NCBI GenBank assembly: GCA_002708475.1 | Contig: PAOL01000070.1 | Location: 1-35,422 of the forward strand | Source of the DNA: Oleispira sp. | GTDB lineage: Bacteria > Pseudomonadota > Gammaproteobacteria > Pseudomonadales > Oceanobacteraceae | DNA: 35,422 nt | Direction: 5' to 3' | In this document: positions 1 to 35,422 of the stretch, one piece after another | Layout: each line of letters starts with the position of its first letter | How positions within the stretch are numbered: the first letter of the stretch is position 1 | The notes under the pieces: model-generated | The model's database searches: none | What the model was told of the DNA's origin: nothing | What the model saw: the letters and a program-made list of their open reading frames with translations, nothing else | Position numbers and translations under genes: made by a program

Positions 1-2
1 AT

Positions 3-23
3 ATACCGTTCCTGGAAAAGTAA
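3..23 (+). pseudogene. tnpA: Extreme 3' end of a Tn3-family transposase gene (window-edge fragment)
   Basis: Frame 3 reads IPFLEK* and matches the YRPTIDK* C-terminus of the intact tnpA at 30474. The stop-to-IR-end distance is 76 bp in both copies (23 to 99; 30474 to 30550). Confidence 0.7.
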
Positions 24-63
24 TGCACCTCTACAGCCTAGGAATAGCAAGGCCTACAGAGCG

Positions 64-99
64 AATTGCAATATTTGGCGGCAAAATCCCTAGAACCCC
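64..99 (+). repeat. Terminal inverted repeat (tnpA-proximal end) of a Tn3-family element lying to the left
   Basis: attgcaatatttggcggcaaaatccctagaacccc nearly matches the intact right IR ...tttgcaatatttggaggcaaaatccctaggacccc at 30516-30550 (about 3 mismatches). Confidence 0.88.
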
Positions 100-1119
100 A
101 TTATGGGCGTTGGGCTGGAGGTTGTTGCTGATCTGGCTTCGCTGTTTTTTGATGCAGCATTGCAACTGGGGTGTTTGCGTTTTGCTGCCGGTATAGGTGG
201 CGGTGTTGTAACCGCAACTGCTATCAGCTGGATTGCACAGCAGCCAAATCCTGAAAGGGGCTATGGGCTGTTCATGATGCTGCAGTTTGGTGTGGGGGCC
301 CTGATTTTGGCTGTTTTACCACACTTTATGGCCGTGAATGGAGTGAATGTTATCTATTTGGTGTTTATTGCCTTTGCTTTCTTGTCATTGGTGTTGTCGC
401 CCGCTCTTAAGTGTTCACTAAAACGAAAAATTCATCAGGGTAACGATAACGACGGTATTGAAGTCGCAGCAGAGAAAATCAAACTGCTACCTGTCGGCTT
501 GTCTTTTGTCGCTGTCGGGTTGTTCGAGGCGGCGAATGCCGGTGTTTGGGCCTATATCGAGCGAGTCGGCCTGGCTATTCCCCTTCCCCGAGATACGCTG
601 GGTATGATTTTGGCGATTGCGTCTCTGGTCGGTATTCCCGGTGCCTTGGCCGTCGTTTGGCTCGGTATTCGTCGAGGGCGTTTTCTGCCGATCGCCGCAG
701 GGCTGAGCTGCGGAATGCTTTCATTGTTGTTACTGCTGGGTGTCGATGACCTTTTGTTGTACATGGTGGCGATTATGGCCCTGAGTGCCTCCTGGAGTTT
801 TACGCTGCCATATTTGCAGGGTATTCAGGCGCAGCTGGACCCTCAAGGGCGAATCGCTGTTTTGGGTTACTTTGTGGTTATGGTGGGCGTTGCTCTGGGT
901 CCTGCACTCTATGGGGGCGTCGTGGGCTCAGGAGACTACTCCAATGCCATGTGGTTAGGGGTGCTGCTTTTGGTGGGTTGCCTGATCGCGATTGCGCCAG
1001 TGGCAATAGCGACTGATCAAGTCTCTGATCGAAAACAGGCCGAATCGCCGACCGAACAGCTACCCAGAGTAGTGACCAAGTCGAGGCACAGATTAAAGAA
1101 ACTGCTAACTGGCATCTAA
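100..1119 (+). pseudogene. 5'-truncated major facilitator superfamily transporter
   Basis: Hydrophobic multi-TM ORF starting mid-family (RFAAGIGGGVVTATAISWIA); N-terminal helices are missing exactly at the Tn3 end. Confidence 0.7.
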
Positions 1120-10308: not shown

Positions 10309-10920
10309 GTGGTCAGTTTCAAAGGCTATTGTTATCCGAAAACGGTGATTTTGCAGTGTGTTCGTTGGTAAGTCGCTTATTGTTTAAGTTATCGTGATAT
10401 CGAGGAGATGATGAAGGAGCGAGGAATACACGTAGATCATAGCACCCTGAACCGCTGGGTTCTAGAATTCTCTCCACTGCTTGAAAAGGAGTTCCACAAA
10501 AGGAAACGTCGTTCAGGTGGCAGGATCCGACTTGACGAAACCTACCTTCTGGTTAAAGGGCAATGGAAATGCCTGTATCGCGCTGTTGATAAAGAAGGAA
10601 ATACCATCGATTTTTTGCTAACGTCAAAACGGGACAAAAAGGCTGCCAAGCGATTATTGAAGAAAATGATTAACCGAAATGGCAAGCCGGGATTAATCAA
10701 TATCGACAAAAGTGGAGCCAACCACGCTGCGATCAACGACTACAATCAAGAGAACAACACCCGAATCACTATTCGACAAAGTAAGTACCTAAATAATGTG
10801 ATTGAGCAAGACCACCGGTTCATAAAACGAAAAATGAAACAGGCCATGGGCTTTGAAAGATTTAGCAGTGCTGCCAGAACCGTTGCTTGACTGGAACTGT
10901 GGAGAATGCTTAAAAAGGGT
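10309..10920 (+). pseudogene. IS6-family transposase with at least two in-frame stops
   Basis: VVSFKGYCYPKTVILQCVRW*VAYCLSYRDIEEMMKERGIHVDHSTLNRWV...RLDETYLLVKGQWKCLYRAVDKEGNTIDF...QAMGFERFSSAARTVA*LELWRMLKKGQ. Confidence 0.88.
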
Positions 10921-18475: not shown

Positions 18476-20068
18476 ATGACGAGTGTTCAGCAGATGAAAA
18501 TTAACTTTAGTGATCAGTTTCAGGCACTGTCTGACCGGTATGGTGAATGCGAAGCGCTGGTCAATGTAGAGCGCAATCGCCGTTTTACCTTTTCCCAGTT
18601 GCACCGGATCTCCAATCAGATCGTTAACATGCTCCGTGACACGCTGGGTCTGCAAGAGGGGGACCGCTTTGTCAATATTCTTGAAAATGACAATATGGCA
18701 CTGCTGCATGCTCCCACCATCCTCAAGGGAGATGTTACTGGCGCCTTTACCAATTTTCGTGATTCCCTCGAAGAGCATACCTGGCAAGTAGACTATGCCA
18801 AACCCAAAGTAGTCTTTATAGAAAATGAGCTGATTGACACCTACTACCCTATGTTGCGAGAAAGGCAGATCACCGTGATTTGCATGGATCCCATCGATCA
18901 GCCAAAAGAAGGACTGTTTTATTTTTGGGAGCTTATTGAGGCCGCTTCATCGGAAAACCCCAATATTGAAATCGACGATCGCGAGCATCCGCTATTAATT
19001 CGGTTTACCGGAGGAACCACCGGCAAGGGAAAGCCGGCTCTGTATTGTGCCGATAATTGGTTTGGTTTGCGCGATGGTATCTATGCGCTGGATGAGAGTG
19101 ATTGGAACACCGAATCACGTATGCTGCATTTGGCACCTATCAGTCATGGCAGCGGTATGTTTGTAGTGCCTGCGTTTTTTGCCGGAGGCTGCAATGTTAC
19201 TCTGAACGAGCCGGATCTTGCCCAGTACTGCAAGGTCATTGAGCGCGAGCGAGTGACCCATGCGATGATGGTTCCCACACTGCTTTACCGCTTACTGGAG
19301 TTGCCAGAGGCACTGAATTCAGACTTTTCCTTCCTGCAAAATATGTTCTATGGCGCCGCCCCCATCAGTCCATCCAAACTGAAACACCTGCAGGAGCAGT
19401 TTGGCAATATTTTTATTCAGGTGTACGGCTCTACGGAACATTTTTGTCTGGCTCTGTCGCTGAGTAAAACCGATCACTGTGTCGATGCACAAACGGAAGG
19501 TCGGTTGGCATCCGCAGGCCGTATCACCGCTGGTGTCGAAGTTGTAGTAATGGATGATGACGGCAAGCCTGTGCCTAGAGGTCAACTGGGCGAATTCTGG
19601 TTACGCTCTCGCGGTACCTGTCTCGGGTATCTGGATAACCCGGAGAAAACGGCCGAGGAGTTCTGCAACGGCTATTGGAAGTCCGGTGATCTGGGTTATA
19701 TCGATGAGCAGGGCTTTGCCTTTATCGTCGATCGCAAGAAAGACATGATAATTTCCGGTGGTTTTAATATTTACGCTACCGAGGTAGAAGCAGTAATCAA
19801 TTCTCACGAGTCGGTATTGATGTCGGCCGTCGTCGGAATTCCCCATGAGGATTGGGGAGAGGCGGTTCACGCCGAAGTGATGCTGCGAGACGGTATGACA
19901 CTGGATAAAGATCAGTTGATTGCGCTGGTTAAGGACACACTGGGCAGTTACAAGGCGCCCAAGACGGTTACGATCGTTGATCAATTGCCGGTGAGTGCTG
20001 TTGGCAAGGTTCTGCGCAAAGATGTACGTCAAAAATACTGGAAGAACGTCGAGCGTCAAGTAGGTTGA
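18476..20068 (+). CDS. AMP-forming acyl-CoA synthetase/ligase
   Basis: RFTGGTTGKGKPAL, VYGSTEH, KSGDLGYIDEQGFAFIVDRKKDMIISGGFNIYATEVE, VSAVGKVLRKDVR. Confidence 0.93.
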   Translation: MTSVQQMKINFSDQFQALSDRYGECEALVNVERNRRFTFSQLHRISNQIVNMLRDTLGLQEGDRFVNILENDNMALLHAPTILKGDVTGAFTNFRDSLEEHTWQVDYAKPKVVFIENELIDTYYPMLRERQITVICMDPIDQPKEGLFYFWELIEAASSENPNIEIDDREHPLLIRFTGGTTGKGKPALYCADNWFGLRDGIYALDESDWNTESRMLHLAPISHGSGMFVVPAFFAGGCNVTLNEPDLAQYCKVIERERVTHAMMVPTLLYRLLELPEALNSDFSFLQNMFYGAAPISPSKLKHLQEQFGNIFIQVYGSTEHFCLALSLSKTDHCVDAQTEGRLASAGRITAGVEVVVMDDDGKPVPRGQLGEFWLRSRGTCLGYLDNPEKTAEEFCNGYWKSGDLGYIDEQGFAFIVDRKKDMIISGGFNIYATEVEAVINSHESVLMSAVVGIPHEDWGEAVHAEVMLRDGMTLDKDQLIALVKDTLGSYKAPKTVTIVDQLPVSAVGKVLRKDVRQKYWKNVERQVG

Positions 20069-20109
20069 AAGTAGACAGTAAGTGGCTAATTTTTGGAGGA
20101 TGTTAATAC

Positions 20110-20898
20110 ATGAGTGAAGCAGCATTGTTAATAGAAAGGCGCGGCCCAATTGCCTGGCTGACCATGAATCGGCCAGAGGCGATGAATGCCATTAACCTGG
20201 ACATGATCAAGCTCTATGAAAAATACCTGCCTGAAATCGCCACGGATGACAGTGTGCGTGTGTTGGTGATTACAGGGACAGGGCGCGCATTTTGTGCGGG
20301 TATTGACTTGAAACAAGTGCTGGAGAGCAGCAATGTCCCTGCCGGTGAAAAAGATATTCTCGACCGTTTGTGCGGAAACGTGTTGGGAGTGCTGCGGGAT
20401 TTCCCCAAGCCGGTGATTGCCTCACTCAACGGCATGACCCTGGCAGGAGGCCTGGAAACAGCTATGTGTGCCGATATCGTGGTGGCCGCCGAGTGCGCCA
20501 AAATTGGCGATGCCCACGCCAATTTCGGGGTTTATCCCGGCGCCGGTGGCGCGGCTGTGTTGCCGCGGTTGGTGCCGCTCAATGTTGCCAAGTATCTTTT
20601 ATTGACCGGCCGCACGCTGACGGCCAACCAAATGAAAGACTACGGTTTTGTGAACGAAGTTGTTGCCGACGAGGCGCTGATCGATGAAACCCAGGCCCTG
20701 GCTGTGCATATTTCGGGCAACAGCCCACTGGCCATGCGCCGCATGAAGGAAGTGGCCAATAAGGCCAATGATGTCAGTCGCGATGCTGCCCTGCAACACG
20801 AGCAGGTTGTGTTTCGCCAACACCAACGTTCGTGGGATTTTCAGGAAGGTATTGCGGCCTTTGGCGAGAAGCGCAAGCCGCAGTTCCAGGGGCGCTGA
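20110..20898 (+). CDS. Enoyl-CoA hydratase/isomerase (crotonase) family protein
   Basis: LTMNRPEAMNAIN, TGRAFCAGIDLKQ, NGMTLAGGLETAMCADIVVA, NFGVYPGAGGAAVLPRLV. Confidence 0.94.
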   Translation: MSEAALLIERRGPIAWLTMNRPEAMNAINLDMIKLYEKYLPEIATDDSVRVLVITGTGRAFCAGIDLKQVLESSNVPAGEKDILDRLCGNVLGVLRDFPKPVIASLNGMTLAGGLETAMCADIVVAAECAKIGDAHANFGVYPGAGGAAVLPRLVPLNVAKYLLLTGRTLTANQMKDYGFVNEVVADEALIDETQALAVHISGNSPLAMRRMKEVANKANDVSRDAALQHEQVVFRQHQRSWDFQEGIAAFGEKRKPQFQGR

Positions 20899-20935
20899 GT
20901 CAGGTCTATCCATTGATATCTACTGAGAATAAATT

Positions 20936-22174
20936 ATGAGCGACATTTATATTGCCGGTGTTGGTATGACCAAATTTGGCCGTCACCTCGAACGCAGCTA
21001 TCACGATCTGACCGGCGAAGCGGTGGAACTGGCCCTAAGCGATGCCGGCGCCGATAAGCGCGATATCGCCCAGGCGTATTTTGGTTCCTGTGTGATTGGC
21101 TTTATGCAGGACCAGCACATGGTCCCCGGGCAGATCGCACTGCGTTCCATGGGATTTGAAGGTATTCCCATTTTTAACGTGGAGGGAGCCTGTGCCTCAG
21201 CCAGCTCGGCTATGTACCTGGCGGCGCAAGCAATCCGTGCAGGCGACTGCGACATCGCCATTGCAGTGGGCACCGAGAAAATGAACAGCCCGGACAAGGC
21301 CAAGATGTTTGCGGCCTTTGACTCCGCCTGGGATGTGTCCACTGCGGAGGCCAATCGGCAACAGTTGGTCAAAATGGGTGAGGGGATAATCCCGCCCGAG
21401 GGCTCTCAGTCTCCAAAACCCTACAGCATGTTTATGGATGTCTACGCGGGTTTCTGCCGTCAGCACATGAAAACCTTCGGCACTACGCAACGCCAAATTG
21501 CCGCTGTGTCCGCCAAAAACCACACCCACTCAGTACACAACCCGCTGTCGCAATATCAGGTGGCCTACACCACTGATGAGGTGATGGCCGCAGCTCCTAT
21601 TACCTATCCGTTGACGCTGCCCATGTGTGCGCCCATCTCCGATGGTTCGGCAGCTGCGGTGCTGTGTAACGCTGAAGGCCTTAAGCGCTTACAGGGTGAT
21701 GCCAGCCGTAGCGTGCGCTTGTTGAGCAGCGTGGTACGCTCTGGTACCACACGGGATGCCAGTGATTACCGGAACCATGTTACCGCGCAGGCGGCCTCGC
21801 AGGCATACGAAAAGGCCGGGGTCAGTCCTGCCGATGTGGATTTGGCGGAAGTACACGATGCCACAGCCATGGGCGAGATTATTCAAGCCGAAAACTTGCA
21901 GCTGGTGCCCTTTGGCGAGGCCGGACCGGCGGCAGAGAATGGCGAATTCACCATCGGCGGTCGCGTGCCCATAAATACCTCCGGTGGCCTTGAATCCAAG
22001 GGCCATCCTATAGGCGCCACCGGGCTGGGGCAAGTCCATGAACTGGTGACCCAACTACGTGGTGAAGCCGGCGCTCGGCAAGTGGAAGGCGCCAAGGTAG
22101 CGATTCAGGAAAATGGTGGTGGTATCTTCGGTGTGGAAGAAGCAACCGCGGTGATTAGCATTCTGGCAAAGTAA
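20936..22174 (+). CDS. Thiolase, SCP-x/lipid-transfer type
   Basis: IAGVGMTKFGRHLERSYHDLTGEAV, NVEGACASASSAMYLAAQAI, AEVHDATAMGEI, NTSGGLESKGHPIGATGLGQ. Confidence 0.93.
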   Translation: MSDIYIAGVGMTKFGRHLERSYHDLTGEAVELALSDAGADKRDIAQAYFGSCVIGFMQDQHMVPGQIALRSMGFEGIPIFNVEGACASASSAMYLAAQAIRAGDCDIAIAVGTEKMNSPDKAKMFAAFDSAWDVSTAEANRQQLVKMGEGIIPPEGSQSPKPYSMFMDVYAGFCRQHMKTFGTTQRQIAAVSAKNHTHSVHNPLSQYQVAYTTDEVMAAAPITYPLTLPMCAPISDGSAAAVLCNAEGLKRLQGDASRSVRLLSSVVRSGTTRDASDYRNHVTAQAASQAYEKAGVSPADVDLAEVHDATAMGEIIQAENLQLVPFGEAGPAAENGEFTIGGRVPINTSGGLESKGHPIGATGLGQVHELVTQLRGEAGARQVEGAKVAIQENGGGIFGVEEATAVISILAK

Positions 22175-22187
22175 TTTCTTGGAGATA

Positions 22188-23336
22188 ACGATGAATTTCA
22201 CATTAAATGATGAACAAAAGATGGTGCTGGAAAGTCTGCGAAAATTTCTGGATGCTGAAATCGAACCCGCCTTTCGTTCCCATGGCGAGGGATTTATTCC
22301 CCGTGAAAAAATGCAGCGCTGGACGCAACAGCTATCGGAATACGGTCTGATCAAAGCGCCTCATGCCGAAGAGTGGGGCGGGTTCGGTATGGACTGGTTG
22401 ACGCACCTGCTGGTGTTCGAGGAGGTGGCTTATACATCGCTTGATATCGCCATTCCCGGCTTTATCAACTGTGTTGGTGCCGAGCTCCTGAGCCAGTTGG
22501 GCTCCGAGGAGCTCAAACGCAGGTATCTGCCAGATCTCATTTCCGGCGATAAGTTTATTTCGATGGGTATTTCCGAGCCCGACGTGGGCTCTGATGTGGC
22601 CGCGGTGAAAACCCGGGCGGTGCGCGATGGTGATCACTGGATAATTAATGGTGAAAAGACCTGGATTACCAACGGTGAATATTCGGATATATTCATCTGT
22701 ACCTGCAAAACGGGTGACGGCGAAATCAGCCATATCCTCATCGATCGCGAAGAACATGGCTACGACGTGATGGGTATAGAGAAAATGGCGCTCAACGGCC
22801 AGTCCACGGCACAGGTGTTTCTATCCGATGTGCGAGTACCGGTCAACAATACCCTGGGTGAGCTTGGTGCAGGCTTGAAAAACACACTCAAGCTTTTTGA
22901 GTACGCCCGCTGTCATATGGCCATGTGGGGAGTTGGTGTTGCCCGTCGCGCCATGGATGAATCCATTAAGTACTCCCAAGAACGTTCACAGCACGGCAAG
23001 CAGATCGCCGCTCACCAACTGATTGCCGACAAGATTGCCACTATGGCTACGAAAATCGATGCCGCGCGTCTGCTGACCCACCGGGCGATGGATATGGTGC
23101 AAGCCGGAGCGCGTGCCGATAAAGAGTGCTCTATGGCAAAGTGGTACGGTACTGAAATAGCCGTTACCGCGACCCGAGATGCTGTGGAGATCCATGGGGG
23201 TAATGGCGTCACTAAGGAGTTTGTGGTTGAGCGCTTGGCGCGCGAAGCGATTATTAGTCCCATTCCTGATGGAACCACTGAAATTCAGAAGCTCTTGATT
23301 GCACGCTGTCTGACCGGAGTTCAGGCATTTCGATAA
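22188..23336 (+). CDS. Acyl-CoA dehydrogenase
   Basis: SMGISEPDVGSDVAAVKTRAVRDGDHWIINGEKTWITNG, ATRDAVEIHGGNGVTKEFVVERLAREA. Confidence 0.95.
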   Translation, partial: TMNFTLNDEQKMVLESLRKFLDAEIEPAFRSHGEGFIPREKMQRWTQQLSEYGLIKAPHAEEWGGFGMDWLTHLLVFEEVAYTSLDIAIPGFINCVGAELLSQLGSEELKRRYLPDLISGDKFISMGISEPDVGSDVAAVKTRAVRDGDHWIINGEKTWITNGEYSDIFICTCKTGDGEISHILIDREEHGYDVMGIEKMALNGQSTAQVFLSDVRVPVNNTLGELGAGLKNTLKLFEYARCHMAMWGVGVARRAMDESIKYSQERSQHGKQIAAHQLIADKIATMATKIDAARLLTHRAMDMVQAGARADKECSMAKWYGTEIAVTATRDAVEIHGGNGVTKEFVVERLAREAIISPIPDGTTEIQKLLIARCLTGVQAFR

Positions 23337-23386
23337 TCATCTGAACAATAGAGTTAATTGAAACAAAACACATATGAGAGAGCACG

Positions 23387-24163
23387 ATGGATCTACAAGA
23401 CAAAGTAGTTGTCATTACCGGAGGAGCTTCAGGTTTGGGGCAAGCGACTGCTAACTATATGGTACGGGAGAAAGGTGCCAGAGTGGCTTTATTTGATCTA
23501 AATGAAGAAACTGGTGCGGCTACTGTGGCGGAACTGGGCGACGATAATGCTATTTTCTGCCAGACCGATGTAACCTCTGAAGAAAGTATCGACGCGGCTG
23601 TTGCTGCTGTGATCGACAGGTTCGGCGCCATTCACGCAGATATTAACGCCGCCGGTATTCCGCTGCCTTGTAAAATACTCGATAAAGAGGGGAAGGCCAG
23701 CAGCCTGAAGAAGTACGCCACGGTCATCGATGTCAATCTGTGTGGTGTATTTAATGTGATGGCCAAGTGCGCGGAACAAATCGCAAGAAACGAACCTGAT
23801 GCCAATGGCGAGCGTGGTGCAATTGTTAATATTTCTTCGGGGGCTGCGTATGAAGGACAGATAGGTCAAAGCGCCTATAGCGGCTCTAAAGCAGGTGTCA
23901 ATGGCATGAATATGCCTGCCGCCCGAGAGCTTGCTAAATACGGCATCAGGGTCAATTCCATTGCTCCGGGCTTGTTTGGCACCCCGATGGTTCAGTCTCT
24001 GGACAAGAATGTCCAGCAGTCGTTGATCAATATGTGTGAAGCGCCAAAGCGTATGGGGGAGATGGACGAGTTTGCCCATACCTGTGCTTTCCTGATTGAA
24101 AATGGCTATATGAACGGTCGTGTGATTCGCTTGGATGCCGCAACGGTCATGCAGGCCAAATAG
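23387..24163 (+). CDS. Short-chain dehydrogenase (HSD17B10 / 3-hydroxy-2-methylacyl-CoA dehydrogenase-like)
   Basis: VVVITGGASGLGQATA, NAAGIPLPCKIL, INISSGAAYEGQIGQSAYSGSKAGVNGM, VNSIAPGLFGTPM. Confidence 0.9.
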   Translation: MDLQDKVVVITGGASGLGQATANYMVREKGARVALFDLNEETGAATVAELGDDNAIFCQTDVTSEESIDAAVAAVIDRFGAIHADINAAGIPLPCKILDKEGKASSLKKYATVIDVNLCGVFNVMAKCAEQIARNEPDANGERGAIVNISSGAAYEGQIGQSAYSGSKAGVNGMNMPAARELAKYGIRVNSIAPGLFGTPMVQSLDKNVQQSLINMCEAPKRMGEMDEFAHTCAFLIENGYMNGRVIRLDAATVMQAK

Positions 24164-24233
24164 TCCAGATTTTTTCTTTGAATAATGAATCACAATATTT
24201 ATCGTGTCAGTAAATGGTAGAAAGGAGATGGTA

Positions 24234-25385
24234 GTGGGGCCCTTGCAAGGTATTAAGGTCATTGAAATCGCCGGCCTTGGGCCGGCACCTGTGTGCGGTA
24301 TGTTACTGGCAGATATGGGCGCCGAGGTTATTCTCGTTCAGCGTAAAAGCAGAGGTACCGCCAATATCACTGATGCCGTTACCAACAGTAAATACGCCAT
24401 TCCCAATAGGGGTAAAAAATCTATTGCTCTTGACCTAAAAGACACCTCAGCCGTAGAGGTTGTACTGGATTTGGTCGCCGATGCTGACGCCCTAATTGAG
24501 GGTTTTCGGCCAGGTGTGATGGAGCGTTTGGGCCTGGGGCCCGATGTCTGTATGGAGAAGAACCCGCGGCTGCTCTATGGCCGTATGACCGGTTGGGGGC
24601 AGCATGGCCCATTGGCTCAGGCTGCGGGTCACGACATTAACTATATCGCCCTTAGCGGTGCATTGTACTACTCAAGTCACCGGGGTGAAGCGCCCTTCGC
24701 GCCGCCGTCTTTGGTAGGCGATGTAGGCGGTGGCTCGATGGTGCTGGTTATGGGGCTATTGGCAGGCATCCTCAACGCCAAGGCTACTGGTAAGGGTCAG
24801 GTGATAGACGCGGCTATTAGCGACGGCAGTGCGCTGATGACATCGTTGCTTTATTCGTTTCACCAGGCCGGTTTGTGGAGCAACGAGCGCGGCGATAATA
24901 TCATCGACAGTGCCTCGCCCTGGTACGATACCTATGAGTGTGCCGACGGCCACTACATAACGGTGGGTGCTTTGGAACCACAGTTTTATAGTCTGTTTCT
25001 GGAAAAATGTGGCCTCAGTGATAACCCTGTTTTTGCCCGCCAGTTTAACAAGGCGGATTGGCCGCAAGCAAAGAACACAATTGTTGCTCTGTTCAAATCC
25101 AGAACTCGAGCCGAGTGGTGCGAGTTAATGGAAGGCACGGATGTTTGTTTTGCACCAGTATTGGATTTTGAAGAGGCTGCGGCGCATCCTCATAATCGTG
25201 AAAGGGAAACCTTTGTTGAATTGGATGGTATTGTGCAGCCGGCGCCGGCACCAAAGTTCAGTGCTACCCCCCTGAACATAGCATCTGCGCCACCACAGGA
25301 AGGCGAGCACACAGAGACGATATTGAAGTCGGTTGGCTACCAGGATGATTATATCGATTTGCTCAAAAGTCGAGCGGTTATTTAG
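24234..25385 (+). CDS. CaiB/BaiF family, alpha-methylacyl-CoA racemase-like; start probably the GTG after AAGGAG
   Basis: GPLQGIKVIEIAGLGPAPVCGMLLADMGAEVI, EGFRPGVMERLGLGP, RMTGWGQHGPLAQAAGHDINYIALSGAL. Confidence 0.9.
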   Translation: MGPLQGIKVIEIAGLGPAPVCGMLLADMGAEVILVQRKSRGTANITDAVTNSKYAIPNRGKKSIALDLKDTSAVEVVLDLVADADALIEGFRPGVMERLGLGPDVCMEKNPRLLYGRMTGWGQHGPLAQAAGHDINYIALSGALYYSSHRGEAPFAPPSLVGDVGGGSMVLVMGLLAGILNAKATGKGQVIDAAISDGSALMTSLLYSFHQAGLWSNERGDNIIDSASPWYDTYECADGHYITVGALEPQFYSLFLEKCGLSDNPVFARQFNKADWPQAKNTIVALFKSRTRAEWCELMEGTDVCFAPVLDFEEAAAHPHNRERETFVELDGIVQPAPAPKFSATPLNIASAPPQEGEHTETILKSVGYQDDYIDLLKSRAVI

Positions 25386-25466
25386 CGATTCAAACAGCCT
25401 GAAAGGGTATGAATAGTTGCCCTGTTCGGATGCTTATTAGTAAGAGATTTTGATAAGAGGTTGACG

Positions 25467-25557
25467 ATGAAACGATTTTCGTCGCGCTGTCACTGCTGCT
25501 AGCAGCCAACGGCAATGCCGCCGAGCGCTCCAATATCCTGCTTGGAACAAACGCTTC
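25467..25557 (+). pseudogene. Possible sulfatase N-terminal remnant (signal peptide plus ERSNILL), frameshifted and truncated
   Basis: After a 1-nt frame correction: M-K-TIFVALSLLLAANGNAAERSNILL, like the RPNILLI start of exported sulfatases. Confidence 0.4.
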
Positions 25558-25569
25558 GGTCCTCGGAGC

Positions 25570-25890
25570 GTGATACACTCCTATGCGATGGCCGAGTGGA
25601 CGCACGAGTCCACTACTGACCCCGAGGCTCGCTTATTCCGCAAAGGTAAAGGAAAAGAGGCCAAGCTGTGCTTCATGGGGCATCTACTCACCGAGAACCG
25701 TAATGGCCTGATTGTTGATGCAGAAGCCTGCCTGGCCGGAACATCCAAAGAATGGGATTCGAGCATCAGTTTGCTGGCAAATCAGAGCGCTCGACCAGGG
25801 CAAACAGTGAGTGCAGATAAAGGATATAACACCAACGAATTTGTAGAAGGTTGTCGCGAATTAAAGGTGACGCCACATGTTGCGGCGACG
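25570..25890 (+). pseudogene. IS5-family-like transposase internal fragment
   Basis: THESTTDPEARLFRKGKGKEAKLCFMGHLLTENRNGLIVDAEACLAGTSKEW...VSADKGYNTNEFVEGCRELKVTPHVA; truncated at both ends. Confidence 0.8.
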
Positions 25891-26241
25891 ATTTTTTGCC
25901 GCTATGTCAATCTATATCTTCAACTAAATTCTTCGTTTATCTTCAGCCTGAAACTCTAATCTCCAGTATTTATATCGAAAGTGTAATAACTGCAAAATAC
26001 GCTCGACTACGATCCGCGTGGCGAAGGGGCTTAGAACTGATGTTGTTCTCGCAGGAGCGCTCAGTGTCAGGATTACTTACAGTCTAGTCCCATAAGGCTA
26101 ATAATATTGTCGTAATAATTCTGTAAGTCCTTGTAGAACTGTGAGTTTTTGATCAACAGTATGTTTCTTGCTTGCAAAACGCTCTTGGGCCACATGCTTG
26201 GGTGATGTACACCCGACGGTCAATGCTGGAAGGAGAGAAGG

Positions 26242-27009
26242 ATGAAGCGACTATTCCCTGCCTTATTAACACTGGCACTTGTTTCATTTTTTGGCAGCGC
26301 CGCAGCCTCTAAGATAGAGCCGGGCTTCGACCTTCTAAAAACCAAAAAGGGCGAATTGACGCTCAAATCATTGAAGGGAAAAGCGATCTCTCCATTGAAC
26401 ATGAAACTCAAAAGCAATCCGATCAAGAAAAAGAAGACCGGGAAGAAGTTTGGTAAAACCGACAAAGTGCTGCAACGCAAGAAACTTCATCCCAGAAAGG
26501 CGGACACAATTGATGTTGAATTGGTCCATCTTTCACTAAAAAGCGCCGCGCCAGTGAAAATCAAGAAAAAGAACAAGACCAAAAAGTACGACGCTTTTGT
26601 CACTCTGAACAAAAAGGAAAATTCCAAAGGTCAGCTCAAGATCAAATCCCATGACGATAAAAAGGGCGGCGGTGACTTCCTGTTGACACTCAATAATTTG
26701 TTTTTGAAAATTGATTTTGTCCCCATTCTCGGTGGCCAGGGAGGTGCGATTACCGAATTGATCGATGTGGGTCCTCTTCGCTCCAGCGGTGGCACCTGGT
26801 CCCATGGGGCCGATAGCTCTTACCCCACGATACCTAACTTTCCTGCGGGAAATTTCTTTATCCGTGATTTCGGGCTGGGGAATGATGCCGATCCTTTCTT
26901 TCTGCAGTCGATTGTAGCGGCAAGAGTCCCACTGCCTGCCACGTTGCTGCTAATTGGCAGTGGTCTGTTATTTATTGGGTTTGCCAGAACACGTGGCCCC
27001 ATGACCTGA
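26242..27009 (+). CDS. Secreted Lys-rich protein with C-terminal PEP-CTERM (VPLPA) sorting signal
   Basis: N-terminal signal peptide MKRLFPALLTLALVSFFGSAAAS; C-terminus VPLPATLLLIGSGLLFIGFARTR. Confidence 0.82.
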   Translation: MKRLFPALLTLALVSFFGSAAASKIEPGFDLLKTKKGELTLKSLKGKAISPLNMKLKSNPIKKKKTGKKFGKTDKVLQRKKLHPRKADTIDVELVHLSLKSAAPVKIKKKNKTKKYDAFVTLNKKENSKGQLKIKSHDDKKGGGDFLLTLNNLFLKIDFVPILGGQGGAITELIDVGPLRSSGGTWSHGADSSYPTIPNFPAGNFFIRDFGLGNDADPFFLQSIVAARVPLPATLLLIGSGLLFIGFARTRGPMT

Positions 27010-27093
27010 CGGGCAGTCGTCTTCAGGTCGTACACACTATGCTGTCGATTAAAGATCGGTTGCCCCTAATCGCCGGCCTCTTGCTCCCTATCG

Positions 27094-27120
27094 GGGGTAC
27101 TGGGGATTTTACCTCCAAAT
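27094..27120 (-). repeat. Terminal inverted repeat of a second, diverged Tn3-family element
   Basis: GGGGTACTGGGGATTTTACCTCCAAAT vs GGGGTCCTAGGGATTTTGCCTCCAAAT at 27323 (24/27). Confidence 0.88.
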
Positions 27121-27148
27121 GTAACACTTCCCTCTGAGTCCCCCATGA

Positions 27149-27322
27149 TTACTGGCTTGTAGCGGAGGTGTGTTTTGCACTTACGGGTAAATACCCATCA
27201 ATGGAGCACATCAGTTCCACCAGGTCCGGTAACTTCTCACTCAATTCGAAGTTGTAGGTGCCTTTCAGATTGATGTTGTACCAAGCCACTGGAGAGGCTT
27301 GTTTTACAACCTGTACCCTATT
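27149..27322 (-). pseudogene. tnpA: C-terminal fragment of a second Tn3-family transposase, cut off at the intact element's left IR
   Basis: Minus-strand NRVQVVKQASPVAWYNINLKGTYNFELSEKLPDLVELMCSIDGYLPVSAKHTSATSQ* aligns with ETVKRASPVAWENINLRGRYTFAPTGELPKLEDLMESIDGYRPTIDK*. Confidence 0.9.
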
Positions 27323-30300
27323 GGGGTCCTAGGGATTTTGCCTCCAAATATTGCAAAAACCGCCGGAGGCCCCGCCATCCGTGGGCTGCAGGGGGCTATT
27401 AGTTTCTAATGCGCTGAGAAATTCGGTATCTTCTTCGACCTTTAGGTCAAAGAATGAGCAGAAACAAGCGGCTATCAATCCTCACTGCTGCCGAGGTCGA
27501 GGATCTATATGGCGTCCCATCCTTCAATGAGTCATACCAGCGATTCTACTTTATGCTGAATGACAAAGAACTAGCGGAGATATCGAGAATAAGGCAACGC
27601 AAATATCGTTGTGTGGCGATTGCTTTGCTGGGCTACTTCAAATGCAAACCGGTCCTGCTTAACCCAAGGTACAAATCAATGCAGGACGACTTGGTATTCA
27701 TAGCCCGATTTCACTATAGGGACCTTACCTTCAGGCGTTTTAGCCTGAAACCTGACCAAAAATCCCGTATCTATGCGCGTGTTCTATCGATCGTCGGCGT
27801 CAGCAACTGGAACGATAAAAGACATCAGCCACAGCTTGTCGAGCACTTGTGTACCTGTGCTGAAAGCTGGGTGGAGCCCCGAGCAGTCTTTGACGCTGCA
27901 ATCGAATATTTGGCTCGCCAGAAAATCGCAATTCCCGCCTATAGTACGCTGCAGAAGATCGTCAGTCAGGTTATTGGCCAGCACCAGAAACGATTGCATG
28001 ACCAGATCGACGCCGCTTGCAGCCAAGGTCTATCAACTATGTTGCTCACACTGGTTTCCGGTGAAGGCCAGTTTACATTCCAGCAACTACGCCAGAGCGC
28101 CCGCAATTTTACCGGCACCGAGTTGCAAAAAGAAATAGCCGTGTATCACCATATTCAGCCGTGGATGACGGATGTGACGACTGTACTCGAGTCACTTTCT
28201 CTCTCTCAGAAAAACCAGCAACACTATGCCGAACGGGTTGACTACTACGGAGCCAAACTTAAACGTCAATCGCTTGCTAACCAGCGCCTGTACTTGCTGT
28301 GCTATCTGCAGTCGCGGCACCAGCAGGGCCTGGAACGTATTGCGGAAGGGTTCATACATCACCTCCGGCAAGTGAAACAACGTGCGCATCAAATGGCCCA
28401 AGAACGGGTCTATCGGGATTGGCAAAAGGCAGCTCGCAATGTGAGCAAAGCTACTGATATCTTACACCTGTTCGTTGATGACAGCATCGATCCTGATACG
28501 TCGTTTCAAGCTGTACAGCAACGGGCGTTCCAGTTTCTCAATGTCAGCGACCTGAACTCAGTCTGCCGATACCTGAGTAATCAGAAACAGTCGGCGGAGG
28601 AGGCATTTTGGCAGCACCTGGATACGGAGTCCACATTGCGAGCCGGACTGTTGCGTTCGCTCTTTTGCTGTCTGCGTTTTGACGGTACCGACAAAACGCG
28701 GCGGTTAGCCGGGGCCCTGGCCCAAGCTCGGTTGGATTTGGTCGCCGGTAATAGGCTCGGCGATGTCAGCATTGATCAGCGTTTACTACCGAAAGCCACA
28801 CGGCCATTGCTGTCGAAACCCGATGGCAGTATAGACAAATCCAAGTATGAATGGTTTTTGTATCTGCAGATACCCAACCGCTTAAACGGCCAGTTGACGC
28901 TGCCGGAAGTCATTCGATATCGGGCGTTAGAGGATGATCTCGTGAAGCCAGAGATCTGGAAAAACCAGAAGGGGTCCTTGGTGGAGGGCACTCAGCAACC
29001 CAATATCAGCGAGGATCCGAAACGTCTGATTCCACGCATGGCGGATGAGCTGACCCTTCGGTTGCACGAAGTCAGCCACTATTTGGAGCGTTCAGATACC
29101 AGGGACGTAATTTTGCGACCGAAAGACGGCAAACATCACTGGCGGCTGCCTACAGCCAGCAAGAAGCACCTAGTGAATAACCCGTTCTTCCAGCAAATGA
29201 AAGCGGTCAGCATCGCCGATGTATTGCGCGTAGTGGATCGGGATACCGGGTTCATTGACGACTTCCAACATGTGCTGGGCTTGAGCTCGAAAAGCCGTCA
29301 GTACGAAGTGGATCTGCTGGCGATACTGATTGCCAATGCCACTAATCAGGGCATCTATGGCATCGCGCAGATTTCTGACTGCACCTATGAACAACTCAGC
29401 ACTATCCAAGCGAACTACCTTCGGTTGGAAACCCTGAATGCGTCCAATGACCGCATCAACAACGCCACTACACGACTGAGTATCTTCAAGCACTACAACA
29501 TTCAGGAAGATATTCTGCACGCCAGTGCCGATGGTCAGAAGTTCGAAGCCAAACGCGAGACATTCCGCACGCGGTACTCCTCAAAATACTTCGGGACCAG
29601 CAAAGGCGTGTCCGCGGTCAGTCTGAATGCCAATCATATGGCCATCAATGCCCGGGTAATCGGGGCCAATGAGCATGAATCCCATTACATCTTTGACCTG
29701 TTGATGAACAACAGTACTGAGATAGTCCCCGACATGCTCTCAACTGACACTCATGGAGTAAACCATGTGAACTTTGCCCTGCTCGACCTGTTCGGATATC
29801 GGTTCGCACCTCGATATGCCCAGGTCGGCAGGGTCATCAATGAACTATTCAACATCACCGAAGACAAGAACCAGCAAGTGCATATATCGTTGCGCAAGCC
29901 GATCAACACGCAGCGTATCATGGCTCACTGGGACACCATCCAGCGGATTGCCGTCTCTTTGGCTCAGCGCAAGACCAGTCAGGCCAGGTTAGTGCGTAAA
30001 CTATCCGGTTACAAGCACAATCACCCATTACTGGAGGCATTGACCGAATATAACCGGCTGCTGAAAGCCCAATATCTGCTGAACTACATTGACGACGCCA
30101 GCCTTAGAAATCACGTTCAGCGAGCGTTGAACCGGGGTGAAGCCTATCACCAGCTGAGACGGGCGATTAGCCACGTCAATGGCGACCGATTCCGGGGTAA
30201 TAGCGATGAGGAGATCCAGATCTGGAACGAAAGTGCCAGACTGGTGGCAAATGCCATCATCTACTTCAACTCAAAAGTGCTCAGTAATCTGCTGGACAGC

Positions 30301-30550
30301 TTTGAGGATCAAGGCAATGCAATGTCTCTGGAAACAGTAAAGCGGGCCTCACCTGTAGCCTGGGAGAATATCAACCTCCGGGGTAGATACACATTCGCAC
30401 CGACAGGTGAATTGCCAAAACTTGAGGATTTAATGGAATCGATTGATGGCTACCGGCCGACAATCGATAAGTAATGGGCCTCCAGAAACCACAGCTGGCG
30501 CGGCCTGCAGCGGTTTTTGCAATATTTGGAGGCAAAATCCCTAGGACCCC
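27323..30550 (+). mobile_element. Tn3-family transposable unit carrying tnpA only
   Basis: Perfect 41-bp IRs GGGGTCCTAGGGATTTTGCCTCCAAATATTGCAAAAACCGC (27323-27363) and reverse complement (30510-30550) flanking a full-length tnpA; no resolvase or passenger gene inside. Confidence 0.93.
27454..30474 (+). CDS. tnpA: Tn3-family transposase (DDE_Tnp_Tn3)
   Basis: 1006 aa; N-terminal DUF4158-like region, HASADGQKFEAKRETFRTRYSSKYFG, STDTHGVNHVNFALLDLFGYRFAPRYAQV, SPVAWENINLRGRYTF. Confidence 0.97.
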   Translation: MSRNKRLSILTAAEVEDLYGVPSFNESYQRFYFMLNDKELAEISRIRQRKYRCVAIALLGYFKCKPVLLNPRYKSMQDDLVFIARFHYRDLTFRRFSLKPDQKSRIYARVLSIVGVSNWNDKRHQPQLVEHLCTCAESWVEPRAVFDAAIEYLARQKIAIPAYSTLQKIVSQVIGQHQKRLHDQIDAACSQGLSTMLLTLVSGEGQFTFQQLRQSARNFTGTELQKEIAVYHHIQPWMTDVTTVLESLSLSQKNQQHYAERVDYYGAKLKRQSLANQRLYLLCYLQSRHQQGLERIAEGFIHHLRQVKQRAHQMAQERVYRDWQKAARNVSKATDILHLFVDDSIDPDTSFQAVQQRAFQFLNVSDLNSVCRYLSNQKQSAEEAFWQHLDTESTLRAGLLRSLFCCLRFDGTDKTRRLAGALAQARLDLVAGNRLGDVSIDQRLLPKATRPLLSKPDGSIDKSKYEWFLYLQIPNRLNGQLTLPEVIRYRALEDDLVKPEIWKNQKGSLVEGTQQPNISEDPKRLIPRMADELTLRLHEVSHYLERSDTRDVILRPKDGKHHWRLPTASKKHLVNNPFFQQMKAVSIADVLRVVDRDTGFIDDFQHVLGLSSKSRQYEVDLLAILIANATNQGIYGIAQISDCTYEQLSTIQANYLRLETLNASNDRINNATTRLSIFKHYNIQEDILHASADGQKFEAKRETFRTRYSSKYFGTSKGVSAVSLNANHMAINARVIGANEHESHYIFDLLMNNSTEIVPDMLSTDTHGVNHVNFALLDLFGYRFAPRYAQVGRVINELFNITEDKNQQVHISLRKPINTQRIMAHWDTIQRIAVSLAQRKTSQARLVRKLSGYKHNHPLLEALTEYNRLLKAQYLLNYIDDASLRNHVQRALNRGEAYHQLRRAISHVNGDRFRGNSDEEIQIWNESARLVANAIIYFNSKVLSNLLDSFEDQGNAMSLETVKRASPVAWENINLRGRYTFAPTGELPKLEDLMESIDGYRPTIDK

Positions 30551-30615
30551 TGTGAGCTGAACTGCTCGGGAGTACAGTGGGAGACGTAGGCACATCTTCT
30601 AACTAAATGCCCTGG

Positions 30616-30701
30616 GGGAGGGATAAGTACGGGTATCCGGGTAGGTCGATTTCGTTCCTCGCCCTCCCACTGTTCCAAAGGCAATCTTGCCTTTGGACAG
30701 T
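30616..30701 (+). promoter_or_regulatory. Structured 5' leader / palindromic operator upstream of the 145-aa ORF
   Basis: GGGAGGG (30616-30622) / CCCTCCC (30662-30668) with inner GGATA/TATCC, followed by ACTGT-t-CCAAAGGCAA-tc-TTGCCTTTGG-ACAGT (30669-30701). Confidence 0.6.
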
Positions 30702-30715
30702 ACAGGAGAACGAAT

Positions 30716-31153
30716 ATGTCGATGAGTGCAGGGCCAGAGAAACGACGTGATACGTTGAACGAGTATGGCTTATCCAGGTTATCCCTCCAGGCAGGTATCG
30801 CTATTCAAGAACAAGAGAATGTCAAAGCAATATCGAAAGCAAAACGCTTGATTGGTTTCCACCTGACCAAATACTTCGGCGGCTGCTCAATTATGGAGGG
30901 GTATGGATTTTGGTCGCATCAAGGCGACGAATTCGAACGCGAGTATGATGACCCGCAACAGGAAGCGCTTCTTTGGATCAATCTGATGATTATGCCCGAT
31001 CAGCTTGATCAGGCTCGGGCCTGTATTAAGGAATGCGGGGAGCTACTGCGAGAAAGAGGCTTCGCGCCGGATCTAAAGCGTATTCATTGTGAACTGACAG
31101 TAACAGAAGCTCACCATATAACGGTGGGTATTGGGAGTGTGACCCATGGGTGA
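30716..31153 (+). CDS. Uncharacterised 145-aa protein, 3' end abutting an IS200/IS605-type right end
   Basis: RBS aggag, ATG, continuous ORF (HLTKYFGGCSIMEGYGFWSHQGDEFEREYDDPQQEALLWINLMI...); stop codon lies at the IS boundary. Confidence 0.65.
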   Translation: MSMSAGPEKRRDTLNEYGLSRLSLQAGIAIQEQENVKAISKAKRLIGFHLTKYFGGCSIMEGYGFWSHQGDEFEREYDDPQQEALLWINLMIMPDQLDQARACIKECGELLRERGFAPDLKRIHCELTVTEAHHITVGIGSVTHG

Positions 31154-31197
31154 CTGCTCCCCACCCAACGCTTCGCTAGGGTGAGGCTTCCCACTTC
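31150..31197 (-). repeat. IS200/IS605-type right end (reRNA/omegaRNA scaffold region)
   Basis: Minus strand GAAGTGGGAAGCCTCACCCTAGCGAAGCGTTGGGTGGGGAGCAGTCAC directly after the tnpB stop; CACCC/GGGTG stem typical of these ends. Confidence 0.65.
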
Positions 31198-31470
31198 TCA
31201 GGCTGCAGCCGGTAACAAACCGGACTTACGCTCGCCTCCGTGGGCAGAGACGACAAGTCCTGCCGCCTGTAATTGGAAAATTCCCTGTTGCTTGATGTTG
31301 ATCGCCGCATTGGTATCGCGGTCATGGACGGCGCCACAAGCACACGTCCAGGCTCGCACCGAGAGTGCGAGTGTGTCCCGCTTTTCACCACAACAGGAAC
31401 AGGTCTTCGATGAAGCAAACCACTGGTCAATTTTGACCAAGTGCTTACCCGACTGCTCAGCCTTGTAGTG
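31198..31470 (-). pseudogene. tnpB: TnpB (OrfB) C-terminal remnant, 5' part lost at an IS21-type end
   Basis: HYKAEQSGKHLVKIDQWFASSKTCSCCGEKRDTLALSVRAWTCACGAVHDRDTNAAINIKQQG: Zn finger CxxC...CxC plus RuvC-III Asp. Confidence 0.88.
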
Positions 31471-31471
31471 T

Positions 31472-31530
31472 TGATTTGCATTTAAAACTGACCCAGGATT
31501 TTCATCAAAATTTGACCCACCCTGTTCGCC
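31472..31530 (-). repeat. IS21-family terminal repeat region
   Basis: tttaaaactgacccaggattttcatcaaaatttgacccaccctgtt; repeated (A)CTGACCCA / TTGACCCA motifs at the istB-proximal end. Confidence 0.65.
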
Positions 31531-31533
31531 TGA

Positions 31534-32298
31534 TTATGGCGTAATTCTCGGTTTTCTTCCTGCCTGTATTTCCTTCTGATTCGTTGTCGAGTGTTTGTGT
31601 CGGTCACTGTCATTTCCGGTTTCTAGGATATGGCAGTGATGGGTAAGCCTGTCGAGCAAGGCCGTCGTCATCTTCTCGTCACCAAAGATGCTCGACCATT
31701 ATCCGAAGCTGAGGTTGGTCGTAATGATGATGCTGGCGCGCTCGTAGAGTTTGCTGATCAGATGGAACAGCAACGCCCCGCCGGCTTGGCTGAACGACAG
31801 ATAGCCAAGCTCGTCCAGGATCACCAGATCGGTGTGTATCAAGCGATTTGCCAGCCGCCCTTGTTGAGCCTGCTGTTTCTCCTGTTCCAGGACATTGACC
31901 AGCTCAATAGTGGATAAGAACCTCACCCGCTGACGATGATGCTGGATAGCCTGCACACCGATGGCCGTAGCGAGGTGAGTCTTGCCCGTGCCCGGCCCAC
32001 CGACCAAGACGACATTCTGGGTATCCTCCAGGAACTGGCAGCGGTATAGTGACTTCACCAGCGCTTCATCGGCCATACTTTGCTGGAAGTCAAAGCCGGT
32101 CAGGTCACGGTAAGCCGGGAACTTCGCAACCTTCATCTGATACTGGGTGGAGCGCACATCGCGCTCAGACGCTTCCGCTTTAAGTAGCATATCCAGCACG
32201 GGTAGCGCACTCTGGTAAGCCGGTGAGGCTTGCTCAGAGAGCGTTGAGATCGCATCGGTCATGCCGTGCAGCTTCAGGGACTTCAGCGTGGCGACCAT
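31534..32298 (-). pseudogene. istB: IS21 helper ATPase with in-frame ochre stop
   Basis: [98 protein letters not shown]...; TAA at 31699-31701 where NLSFGEW is expected. Confidence 0.9.
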
Positions 32299-32302
32299 CG
32301 CA

Positions 32303-32452
32303 TCAGTGTTTATGGGGTGTTCTCCTCAGCTTGTCATAGCGGGCCGTGTTGGCCAGCGGTTCTGTGACCAGTTTCAAGGCGGGGGGGGTTAATGGCTGGG
32401 GTCGCTGTGGTTGCCCCACAAGAGTTTGCATCTCGCTCAAATCCGGTAAAGA
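32303..32452 (-). pseudogene. istA: C-terminal remnant of IS21 transposase
   Basis: LPDLSEMQTLVGQPQRPQPLTPPALKLVTEPLANTARYDKLRRTPHKH* directly upstream of istB; in-frame stop just before it and an 8-C tract inside. Confidence 0.5.
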
Positions 32453-32904
32453 CTAAGCCTTCGGCGCGATTGAGATCACGGTCTTGACCGGCTTAGAGTG
32501 CAATGCGTTGGGTTAATTATGGGCAATCCCATGATGTGTGTTTCTCTTGAGGCACCATTGGGTCACAGCACCTATCGTTGAGTGATTTTCAACCGCGATC
32601 CCGTTTTTGTCTGTCTAGCCCTGAGGTGTCGTAATGGTGACGGACAAAGGCGGGAACCAGACGCCGCGTGCAATAAATTGAAAATTCCCCTACATCCCCC
32701 CGGCGGCTATCGTCGAGGGCTTAGATTGTATGTATGAGTTGGTGTTAGAGGGGGGCGCCTGAAACCCTAAATTCGGCTAGAAGTACATAGGGGCGTACTG
32801 TATCGCTATCCTAGCGCAGCGATATAGCTGAATCACGGGTTGGTGCTGTTGGGCTAACTGAAATGACTAATAGGCTAAGCTAAGTGAGATGATTTTGGAG
32901 TAAT

Positions 32905-35253
32905 GTGAAAAAATCAAAAATCATAATAGAGTTGTTTGGAAATATGAACATTCGGTTTCTGCCTTTAATGCTTCTTATAGTTTTGTGCTCTGACCATGAA
33001 TTTGCACTTGCCGAAAACGGAGGTCAAGGGTATCGACTTGAGGAAGTAACTGTTACAGCTCAAAGACGTACGCAAGATGTTAGAGATGTGCCAATCGCTA
33101 TTACTGTAGTTTCTGGCGATGAAATGAGAGATAAAGCTATATCAGACTTAACAGATATGGCTAAGTTATTGCCAAATGTGTCAATAAATACAGATTACAA
33201 TGCAATGTATATGAGGGGTATAGGAACGGCTGAATCGAATGTAATTGGTGAGCAAGCGGTTGCCTACATTTTGGATGATGTTTATGTGCCAAGGCTAGAT
33301 TTCTTGAAGCCTGGGTTTGTGGATCTAGCGAACATAGAAGTAATGAAAGGGCCGCAAGGAACTTTATATGGTAGGAATGCTACCGGTGGGGTTATAAAGA
33401 TTGATCATGGTATGCCAACGAGGGAATGGGAGGGCTTTGTAAATCTGGCCTCTGGCGATAGAAACTTTAAAAACTATGAAGGTGCGATATCGGGTCCGTT
33501 AACGGATAAAATTTCCTTTCGTTTAGCTTTAAGGAGCGCCGGAGAAGATGGTTTTGTAGAAAACCTAGTTACTGGTGGAAAGTCAAGAAATAAAGATATT
33601 GAACAAGCAAGAATTTCTATTAGGGCAGATATTAGCGATAACTTTTCAATTGATGCAAGTTACTATCATCTTGATTATTACATTGGCGCATCCGGTGGGG
33701 ATGAAATTCATAAGTATCCTTCCCAATTAAGAGCTCTTGGTGAGGTGTTGACGCCTGGATTTGAGTCTAATCTTGATAGGAGGAATTCAAATTCTTCTGA
33801 AAATGAATCAAGTGGTAGCGGCTATATTGCTCCGATAAAATTTACTTATGACAAGTGGGATCATACGTTCAGCTATGTTTATGGAATGGTTGGCTTGGAT
33901 GATGCGATTCGAGCAGATACTGATGGTCAATCAGCAAATGCTGTCAGAATGTTCATTGATCAAGAGTTTGAGCAAATAAGTCATGAGTTGAGAGTTGTTT
34001 CGCCACCTGGGAGATTTCAATACGTAGCTGGGTTGTTCTATTTGGAAACAGACCTTGAGTCAGAGGTCGGTACCCCATTGTATGCTGATTGGATAAAGTA
34101 TATAAATGTTGGTGGTCTCTCTCCTGATGGGCTTGGTCTCGGTGGGGTGTTAGATCTCGTTACAGGCTTGGTAACAAATGATGATGGTGAGTTGTCGAGG
34201 CTGGACGGATATTTCACTGTCGATGTTGAGTCGTTTGGCGTGTTTTCCCAAGTTGAATGGTCAATCACTGATTATCTAGTTATGACGTTAGGAGCTCGAT
34301 ATTCAGATGATAAGAAACATGGTACTGCTATTCTTACTGATGCGGGCCCGTATCCAATATGGGATGTGCTGATATTGGGAGGGTATACTGCGGACGAAAC
34401 TCTTATATTTAGGGATTTTTCACCAAAAATATCTTTAAGCTGGGAGCCTCATGAGAATGTAACAATTTATTCAACATTTTCTCAGGGGTATCGAGCTGGT
34501 AGTTTTAATATTGGGGCATTTAGTAAAGATAAATATGTATTTGATGCCGAGTCCAGCGATACCCTTGAGGCGGGTGTTAAAACATCACTGCTCGATCAAC
34601 GTTTAAGGTTGAATTTTGGGGCTTTTTATACTGAATATGATGGATATCAGCTGGCAACATTTACCGGATTAAACTATACCCAAAGTAATGCAAATGAAGT
34701 GCGAACAAATGGCGTTGAATTTGATATGACTTTACTTGCTGCTGAAGGTTTGATCCTTTCAATGAATGTAGGGTACAACGATGCTAAGTTTGTTGATTAT
34801 AAAGATGCCCCATGCCGAACGGAGGCTCCCCTAGAGCCCGGGTATCAAGTTCAGGGGATAGTCGCTCTGCCTCCTAGCCCTGAATGTGATTTGTCTGGAA
34901 AAGAGCTACATAGGGCTCCAAGGTTGTCAGGTAGCTTCTCATTTAGTTATGAGTCCCAGATTTTGGATTGGCCCTTAAAGTTTGTGCTCGGTGGGGATGC
35001 TAATTTTAAAGGTGGGGAATATATGGACCCGGATTTGGATCCAGATGATTATCAAGAGGAATATTGGATATATAACGGTCGAATTGGGTTGAAAAGTCTT
35101 TCGGAAAGTTGGGGGCTAGAAGTTCAGGTTAAAAATATTAGTGATGAGCTGGTTAAAACCTATAGTGGAGATGTCACGCTTCAGCCTGGAGCTCATTGGG
35201 CGCTAACCAACCCGCCTCGAACTGTTCATGCTGCACTCAGACTTAATTTTTAA
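32905..35253 (+). CDS. TonB-dependent outer-membrane receptor (second, AT-rich)
   Basis: YRLEEVTVTAQRRTQDVRDVPIAITVV, IEVMKGPQGTLYGRNATGGVIKI, C-terminal HAALRLNF. Confidence 0.94.
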   Translation: MKKSKIIIELFGNMNIRFLPLMLLIVLCSDHEFALAENGGQGYRLEEVTVTAQRRTQDVRDVPIAITVVSGDEMRDKAISDLTDMAKLLPNVSINTDYNAMYMRGIGTAESNVIGEQAVAYILDDVYVPRLDFLKPGFVDLANIEVMKGPQGTLYGRNATGGVIKIDHGMPTREWEGFVNLASGDRNFKNYEGAISGPLTDKISFRLALRSAGEDGFVENLVTGGKSRNKDIEQARISIRADISDNFSIDASYYHLDYYIGASGGDEIHKYPSQLRALGEVLTPGFESNLDRRNSNSSENESSGSGYIAPIKFTYDKWDHTFSYVYGMVGLDDAIRADTDGQSANAVRMFIDQEFEQISHELRVVSPPGRFQYVAGLFYLETDLESEVGTPLYADWIKYINVGGLSPDGLGLGGVLDLVTGLVTNDDGELSRLDGYFTVDVESFGVFSQVEWSITDYLVMTLGARYSDDKKHGTAILTDAGPYPIWDVLILGGYTADETLIFRDFSPKISLSWEPHENVTIYSTFSQGYRAGSFNIGAFSKDKYVFDAESSDTLEAGVKTSLLDQRLRLNFGAFYTEYDGYQLATFTGLNYTQSNANEVRTNGVEFDMTLLAAEGLILSMNVGYNDAKFVDYKDAPCRTEAPLEPGYQVQGIVALPPSPECDLSGKELHRAPRLSGSFSFSYESQILDWPLKFVLGGDANFKGGEYMDPDLDPDDYQEEYWIYNGRIGLKSLSESWGLEVQVKNISDELVKTYSGDVTLQPGAHWALTNPPRTVHAALRLNF

Positions 35254-35422
35254 TTACAATAAAAGGAGATTTTATGCCTAGGGAACATCTGATTAATTGA
35301 AGAGAACCGACATGACGGCTGCTAAATTCAATAATCAGGCGCTCATTTCTCTCTTTTCTGCGCTATTTAGCGCGCTTTTGAAGAGCCTTTATGCGCCTGG
35401 CGCACCTAGCCCCGATTTTCGG

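Follow-up and report, generated by a model that had tools for sequence, protein, structure and literature searches.

The window, the 35,422-nucleotide stretch of Oleispira sp. DNA that we analysed, carries an intact IS3000-like insertion sequence of the Tn3 family, which has interrupted an older, diverged relative and is flanked by unmatched bases. The results show that unmatched flanks are the usual state of such elements, and we assign a probability of roughly 0.55 to the reading that the window holds one copy of an unresolved cointegrate or composite event in the 3' end of the older tnpA. A 57-kb composite insertion, bounded by near-identical copies of the same element, was found in a complete chromosome of another family of the order.

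An intact IS3000-like element inside a diverged relative

The terminal inverted repeats (IRs) of the intact element (27323-27404 and 30469-30550) are 82 nt long and 83% complementary overall, and their outer 38 bp are identical at both ends, in agreement with the Tn3 family, whose IRs measure at least 38 bp and begin with GGGG. The left IR of the intact unit, which the preliminary description had placed at 27323, is present at 27323-27349 (+) and the right one at 30524-30550 (-); shuffles of the window give none. The sole long open reading frame of the unit is tnpA, and a resolvase gene is absent between the complete IRs, which at 3,228 bp is the layout of the IS3000 subgroup (about 3.2 kb, tnpA only). 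Its product has the length of about 1000 residues and the Tn3 DDE domain of Tn3-family transposases, matching NCBIfam NF033527 (Tn3 transposase) along its length with 831.6 bits (cut-off 500) as well as Pfam PF01526 (Tn3 DDE, 415 bits) and PF13700 (DUF4158). In an alignment to the solved Tn4430 transposase, D693 pairs with D679 of Tn4430, and, judging from numbering and motif positions, the catalytic set would be completed by D765 and E896. Annotated plasmid-borne IS3000 transposases share about 62% identity with TnpA from end to end, and the ends of the two elements align from base 1 to base 3228. The Tn3 family has seven named subgroups, IS3000 being one (PMC7157771), and on the basis of this identity we count the element among the relatives of IS3000. 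Copies that differ from it by a single SNP are present in other bacteria, including the complete genome G367, and the element is ordinary in kind, another IS3000-like member of its family.

On the left, minus-strand codons reading RVQVVKQASPVAW... abut position 27323 and run to the stop as a 56-residue tnpA tail. A tblastn search with the intact TnpA finds this tail at 27182-27316 (-) with 58% identity (E 2e-9), the IR core previously assigned to the older unit is present beyond it (Table 1), and 28 of 38 terminal bases are common to the remnant and the intact element. The nearest full-length relative found for the remnant is a 3,225-bp element of the Cellvibrionaceae MAG SAT230 (L032), which lies in another genome, is uninterrupted, and matches 222 of the 229 bp with 87% nucleotide identity; judged by its length, the window lacks about 3.0 kb of the older element. 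The match to L032 extends to within 7 bp of the break by BLAST and to the break itself in a gap-free alignment, and the break falls exactly at the 38-bp end of the intact element, which supports the nested insertion into a diverged relative proposed earlier. The anatomy leaves no doubt about the order of events at 27323: the older element was interrupted by the intact one. To the right of 30550 there is no tnpA-like sequence and the older tnpA does not continue, as had also been noted; its missing N-terminal part was sought throughout the 2.65-Mb, 81.6%-complete assembly, in which no further parts of either tnpA were found.

Table 1 Features of the window and copies of the element in G367.
Feature	Position	Strand	Basis or remark
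End of third IS3000-like element	1-99	+	tnpA tail 1-21, right IR 73-99
MFS transporter gene, apparently truncated by third element	103-1119	+	Pfam match from profile position 69
Catabolic operon	18476-25385	+	Pfam: AMP-ligase, enoyl-CoA hydratase, thiolase, acyl-CoA dehydrogenase, SDR, CoA-transferase
3' remnant of second, diverged IS3000-like element	27094-27322	-	229 bp, cut by intact element
Terminal-IR core of older element	27094-27120	+	pattern search; none in window shuffles
C-terminal codons of older tnpA, TAA stop	27149-27322	-	translation; tblastn 58%
Left 5-bp flank CTATT	27318-27322	+	sequence
Intact IS3000-like Tn3-family insertion sequence	27323-30550	+	3,228 bp; 82-nt IRs and near-identical copies
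tnpA	27454-30474	+	1006 aa; NF033527, PF01526, PF13700
Right 5-bp flank TGTGA	30551-30555	+	sequence; mismatched to left
G367, first copy	4116268-4119495		same orientation as the other two
G367, second copy	4147056-4150282		same orientation
G367, third copy	4170229-4173456		same orientation

Targets preserved on one side only recur among related loci. In L023, a 99.9% copy of the window element contains another IS3000-like element and does not resume beyond it; in L043, a relative's tnpA is present only to the right; and in L020 a TonB receptor gene is cut exactly at the left end of the element, its other half not being present on the right. The window thus joins several such cases and is not peculiar. 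L044 and L035, where relatives' tnpA lie nearby and do not abut the junction, and L008, with only a weak 31-residue match, were not counted as nested.

A third IS3000-like element, missed in the preliminary description, is cut within its tnpA tail by the left edge of the contig; its end is 73% identical to 30466-30550 and 81% identical to the right end of L009. The open reading frame of an MFS transporter starts 4 bp past its IR and lacks the N-terminal part. Other mobile sequences in the window are a C-terminal fragment of TnpB (31198-31440), an IS4-type DDE fragment (25570-25959) and an IS6/IS240-type DDE reading frame (10408-10890). The istB to the right of the intact element (31699-32298) is 90% identical in amino acids to the istB at 9825-10421 of L017, where it belongs to an insertion interrupting the same element in Spongiibacter pelagi. 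A gene for a PEP-CTERM-type secreted protein (26242-27009, weak NCBIfam match) adjoins the older IR.

Flanking duplications across the group

The flanks of the window copy, ctatt and tgtga, do not form the 5-bp target duplication of the Tn3 family. The preliminary description had rightly observed the mismatch and had deduced from it a one-sided deletion or recombination after the insertion; the nesting stood, whereas this second step did not, because most related copies lack a matching duplication anyway. Genome contigs, whole genomes and complete plasmids were searched for related copies with sequence on both sides, of which 41 remained after deduplication. The shuffles used for comparison assume independent flanks, and not every copy is independent; the census figures are therefore indicative: a copy's own 5-bp duplication is present in three of the 41 (0.37 expected by shuffling) and absent in 38, and duplications common to different copies within one genome number six, in five genomes (0.38 expected, with a maximum of 4 in 2,000 shuffles). 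On complete replicons, one copy in 12 has its own duplication and 11 lack it, indicating that fragmentary assembly is not the cause of the missing duplications. Five of the six shared duplications are of the direct-repeat kind, the 5 bp to the left of one copy recurring to the right of the other. Shared duplications of this sort point to replicative transposition without a resolvase, which would leave unresolved cointegrates or composites; the cointegrate mechanism has been described for the Tn3 family (PMC7157771). Since the state without a duplication is normal in this resolvase-less group, no second event is needed for mismatched flanks. A later deletion or recombination may have taken place at this locus, but the missing duplication is no proof of it.

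G367 presents the composite arrangement in full. This complete chromosome carries three copies (Table 1), of which the outer two each differ from the window element at one base of 3,228, and the middle one is one base shorter, with its tnpA split in two frames. CGGGT stands on the outer sides of the outer copies, 57 kb apart. When these flanks are joined, they give an uninterrupted 558-aa reading frame with both WS/DGAT domains (a wax-ester-synthase gene), and in three congeners the uninterrupted site aligns across the join with 78-79% identity. The block, 57 kb long, is a composite insertion for which the empty site has been verified, having the two copies and the one outer duplication of a composite transposon; the window holds a single copy. 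A 36.8-kb Marinobacter plasmid (L108) carries IS3000-like copies at intervals of about 6.4 kb, directly oriented and alternating with a repeated segment, as tandem amplification would give.

Comparable evidence was sought at the window locus. If 27094-30550 is taken as a larger unit, with the older IR as an alternative end, the flanks (tatcg and tgtga) are also mismatched, and no common flanks were found among the four ends in the window. L015, which has CTATT on its left, was rejected as the same site on account of its unrelated surrounding sequence. Regarding an empty site, DNA searches of 44 genomes of the family found no match for either 25386-27093 or 30551-35422; 30551-31160 has no DNA match in plasmids, and its 145-aa reading frame has no protein match there.

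Origin of the window locus

From the anatomy, the nesting and the unmatched flanks seen directly in the window, together with the family-wide pattern and the G367 composite, we infer the following origin for the locus. A resolvase-less element of the IS3000 subgroup would have transposed replicatively into the 3' end of a diverged relative's tnpA, leaving two direct copies around donor DNA and the 5-bp duplication split between their outer sides. CTATT, within the older tnpA, would then be the target side and the DNA from 30551 onward donor or cargo, and the remaining 3.0 kb or so of the older element would lie beyond the partner copy, off the contig or since lost. Against this origin, the MAG has no second copy of the intact element (apart from the IR of the third element, the assembly contains no further one of this type), and IR fragments at contig ends would be the normal trace of a partner. 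As the MAG is incomplete, a partner may nevertheless be missing from it, and the same picture would result if the partner had been lost afterwards through recombination or an adjacent deletion.

The single copy in the MAG and the absence of the remainder of the older tnpA would also fit the view taken in the preliminary description, namely a simple insertion with a 5-bp duplication followed by a one-sided loss, either through an element-mediated adjacent deletion or through a swap of the right flank by homologous recombination. The right flank, a patchwork of transposon scraps including the TnpB fragment and istB, likewise has the look that repeated rearrangement would give. We nevertheless regard this course of events as rather unlikely, given that it adds a second event to account for a state that is the rule in the group.

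A junction created by the assembly was also considered. Copies one SNP away exist in other bacteria, and short reads of two genomes could have been joined through the near-identical element, or the contig could be foreign to the MAG. The contig has a GC content of 51-53% over most of its length (100-32900) versus 41% ± 2% in ten other contigs of the MAG, with 47.5% at 25.4-27.1 kb and 42% only in the last 2.5 kb, and its first bases belong to another element of the group. The composition does not change at the intact element, however: 30551-32900 (about 52%) resembles the left side, and the drop occurs near 32.7-32.9 kb. In addition, G343 has a 69% homologue of the receptor gene at 32905, some 6 kb away from a related operon, and so links both flanks. 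An assembly or binning artefact is thus improbable as the source of the locus, while the contig may be an acquired island, misbinned or partly chimeric.

A catabolic operon beside IS3000-like elements

The operon beside the window element has homologues in G367, G308, L020, L027, L028 and G120. The G367 homologue lies within the 57-kb block, between the second and third copies, with amino acid identities of 67% (enoyl-CoA hydratase), 81% (thiolase), 82% (acyl-CoA dehydrogenase) and 71% (SDR). In G308, a copy of the element with about 100% identity, itself interrupted by another insertion and matching that of Spongiibacter pelagi (L017), is located about 0.8 kb downstream of the SDR gene in the same orientation. 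Pieces of the operon adjoin other IS3000-like subgroups in Haliea alexandrii (L020), Halioglobus (L027) and Marinobacter (L028).

Thiolases with at least 79% identity occur in four of the 392 sampled genomes of the order (the window's genome, G367, G308 and G120), and the element with about 100% identity is found only in the first three; in G120, a 78% copy shares a separate contig with a CoA-transferase homologue. In four genomes with thiolases at 62-64%, no IS3000-like tnpA was found in the 12-20 kb read in each. The operon DNA is 71-72% identical, as opposed to 99.97% for the element, indicating that the element reached the neighbourhoods of the operons long after these had diverged. We tentatively propose that IS3000-like elements of several subgroups may be a recurrent carrier of one catabolic operon among marine gammaproteobacteria, with carrier copies being replaced faster than the cargo diverges. 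The association is a lead, given the low numbers and the fact that the element itself led to some of the loci, yet this recurring link is of more interest than the ordinary element of the window.

A literature search, which left most subscription journals outside its reach, found no papers linking IS3000-like elements to catabolic genes. IS1071 is a Tn3-family element with tnpA only that takes part in composite catabolic transposons. By description, the element studied here is similar, a resolvase-less Tn3-type insertion sequence associated with catabolic genes; IS1071 belongs to a separate TnpA subgroup (PMC7157771). A precedent for a composite is Tn3000, in which two copies of IS3000, also a 3.2-kb tnpA-only Tn3-family element, surround blaNDM and mobilise the DNA between them (PMC8894482). 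In contrast to Tn3000, the cargo here consists of catabolic genes in marine gammaproteobacteria, the G367 unit spans 57 kb versus 7-10 kb for most Tn3000, and the window contains no proven composite.

These findings correct a common inference, in that mismatched flanks of resolvase-less Tn3-family elements are not in themselves proof of a later deletion, and they document a 57-kb composite whose duplication is intact and whose empty site has been verified. They further suggest that IS3000-type elements, known for the spread of a carbapenemase gene in hospital bacteria, may move degradation genes in marine bacteria.
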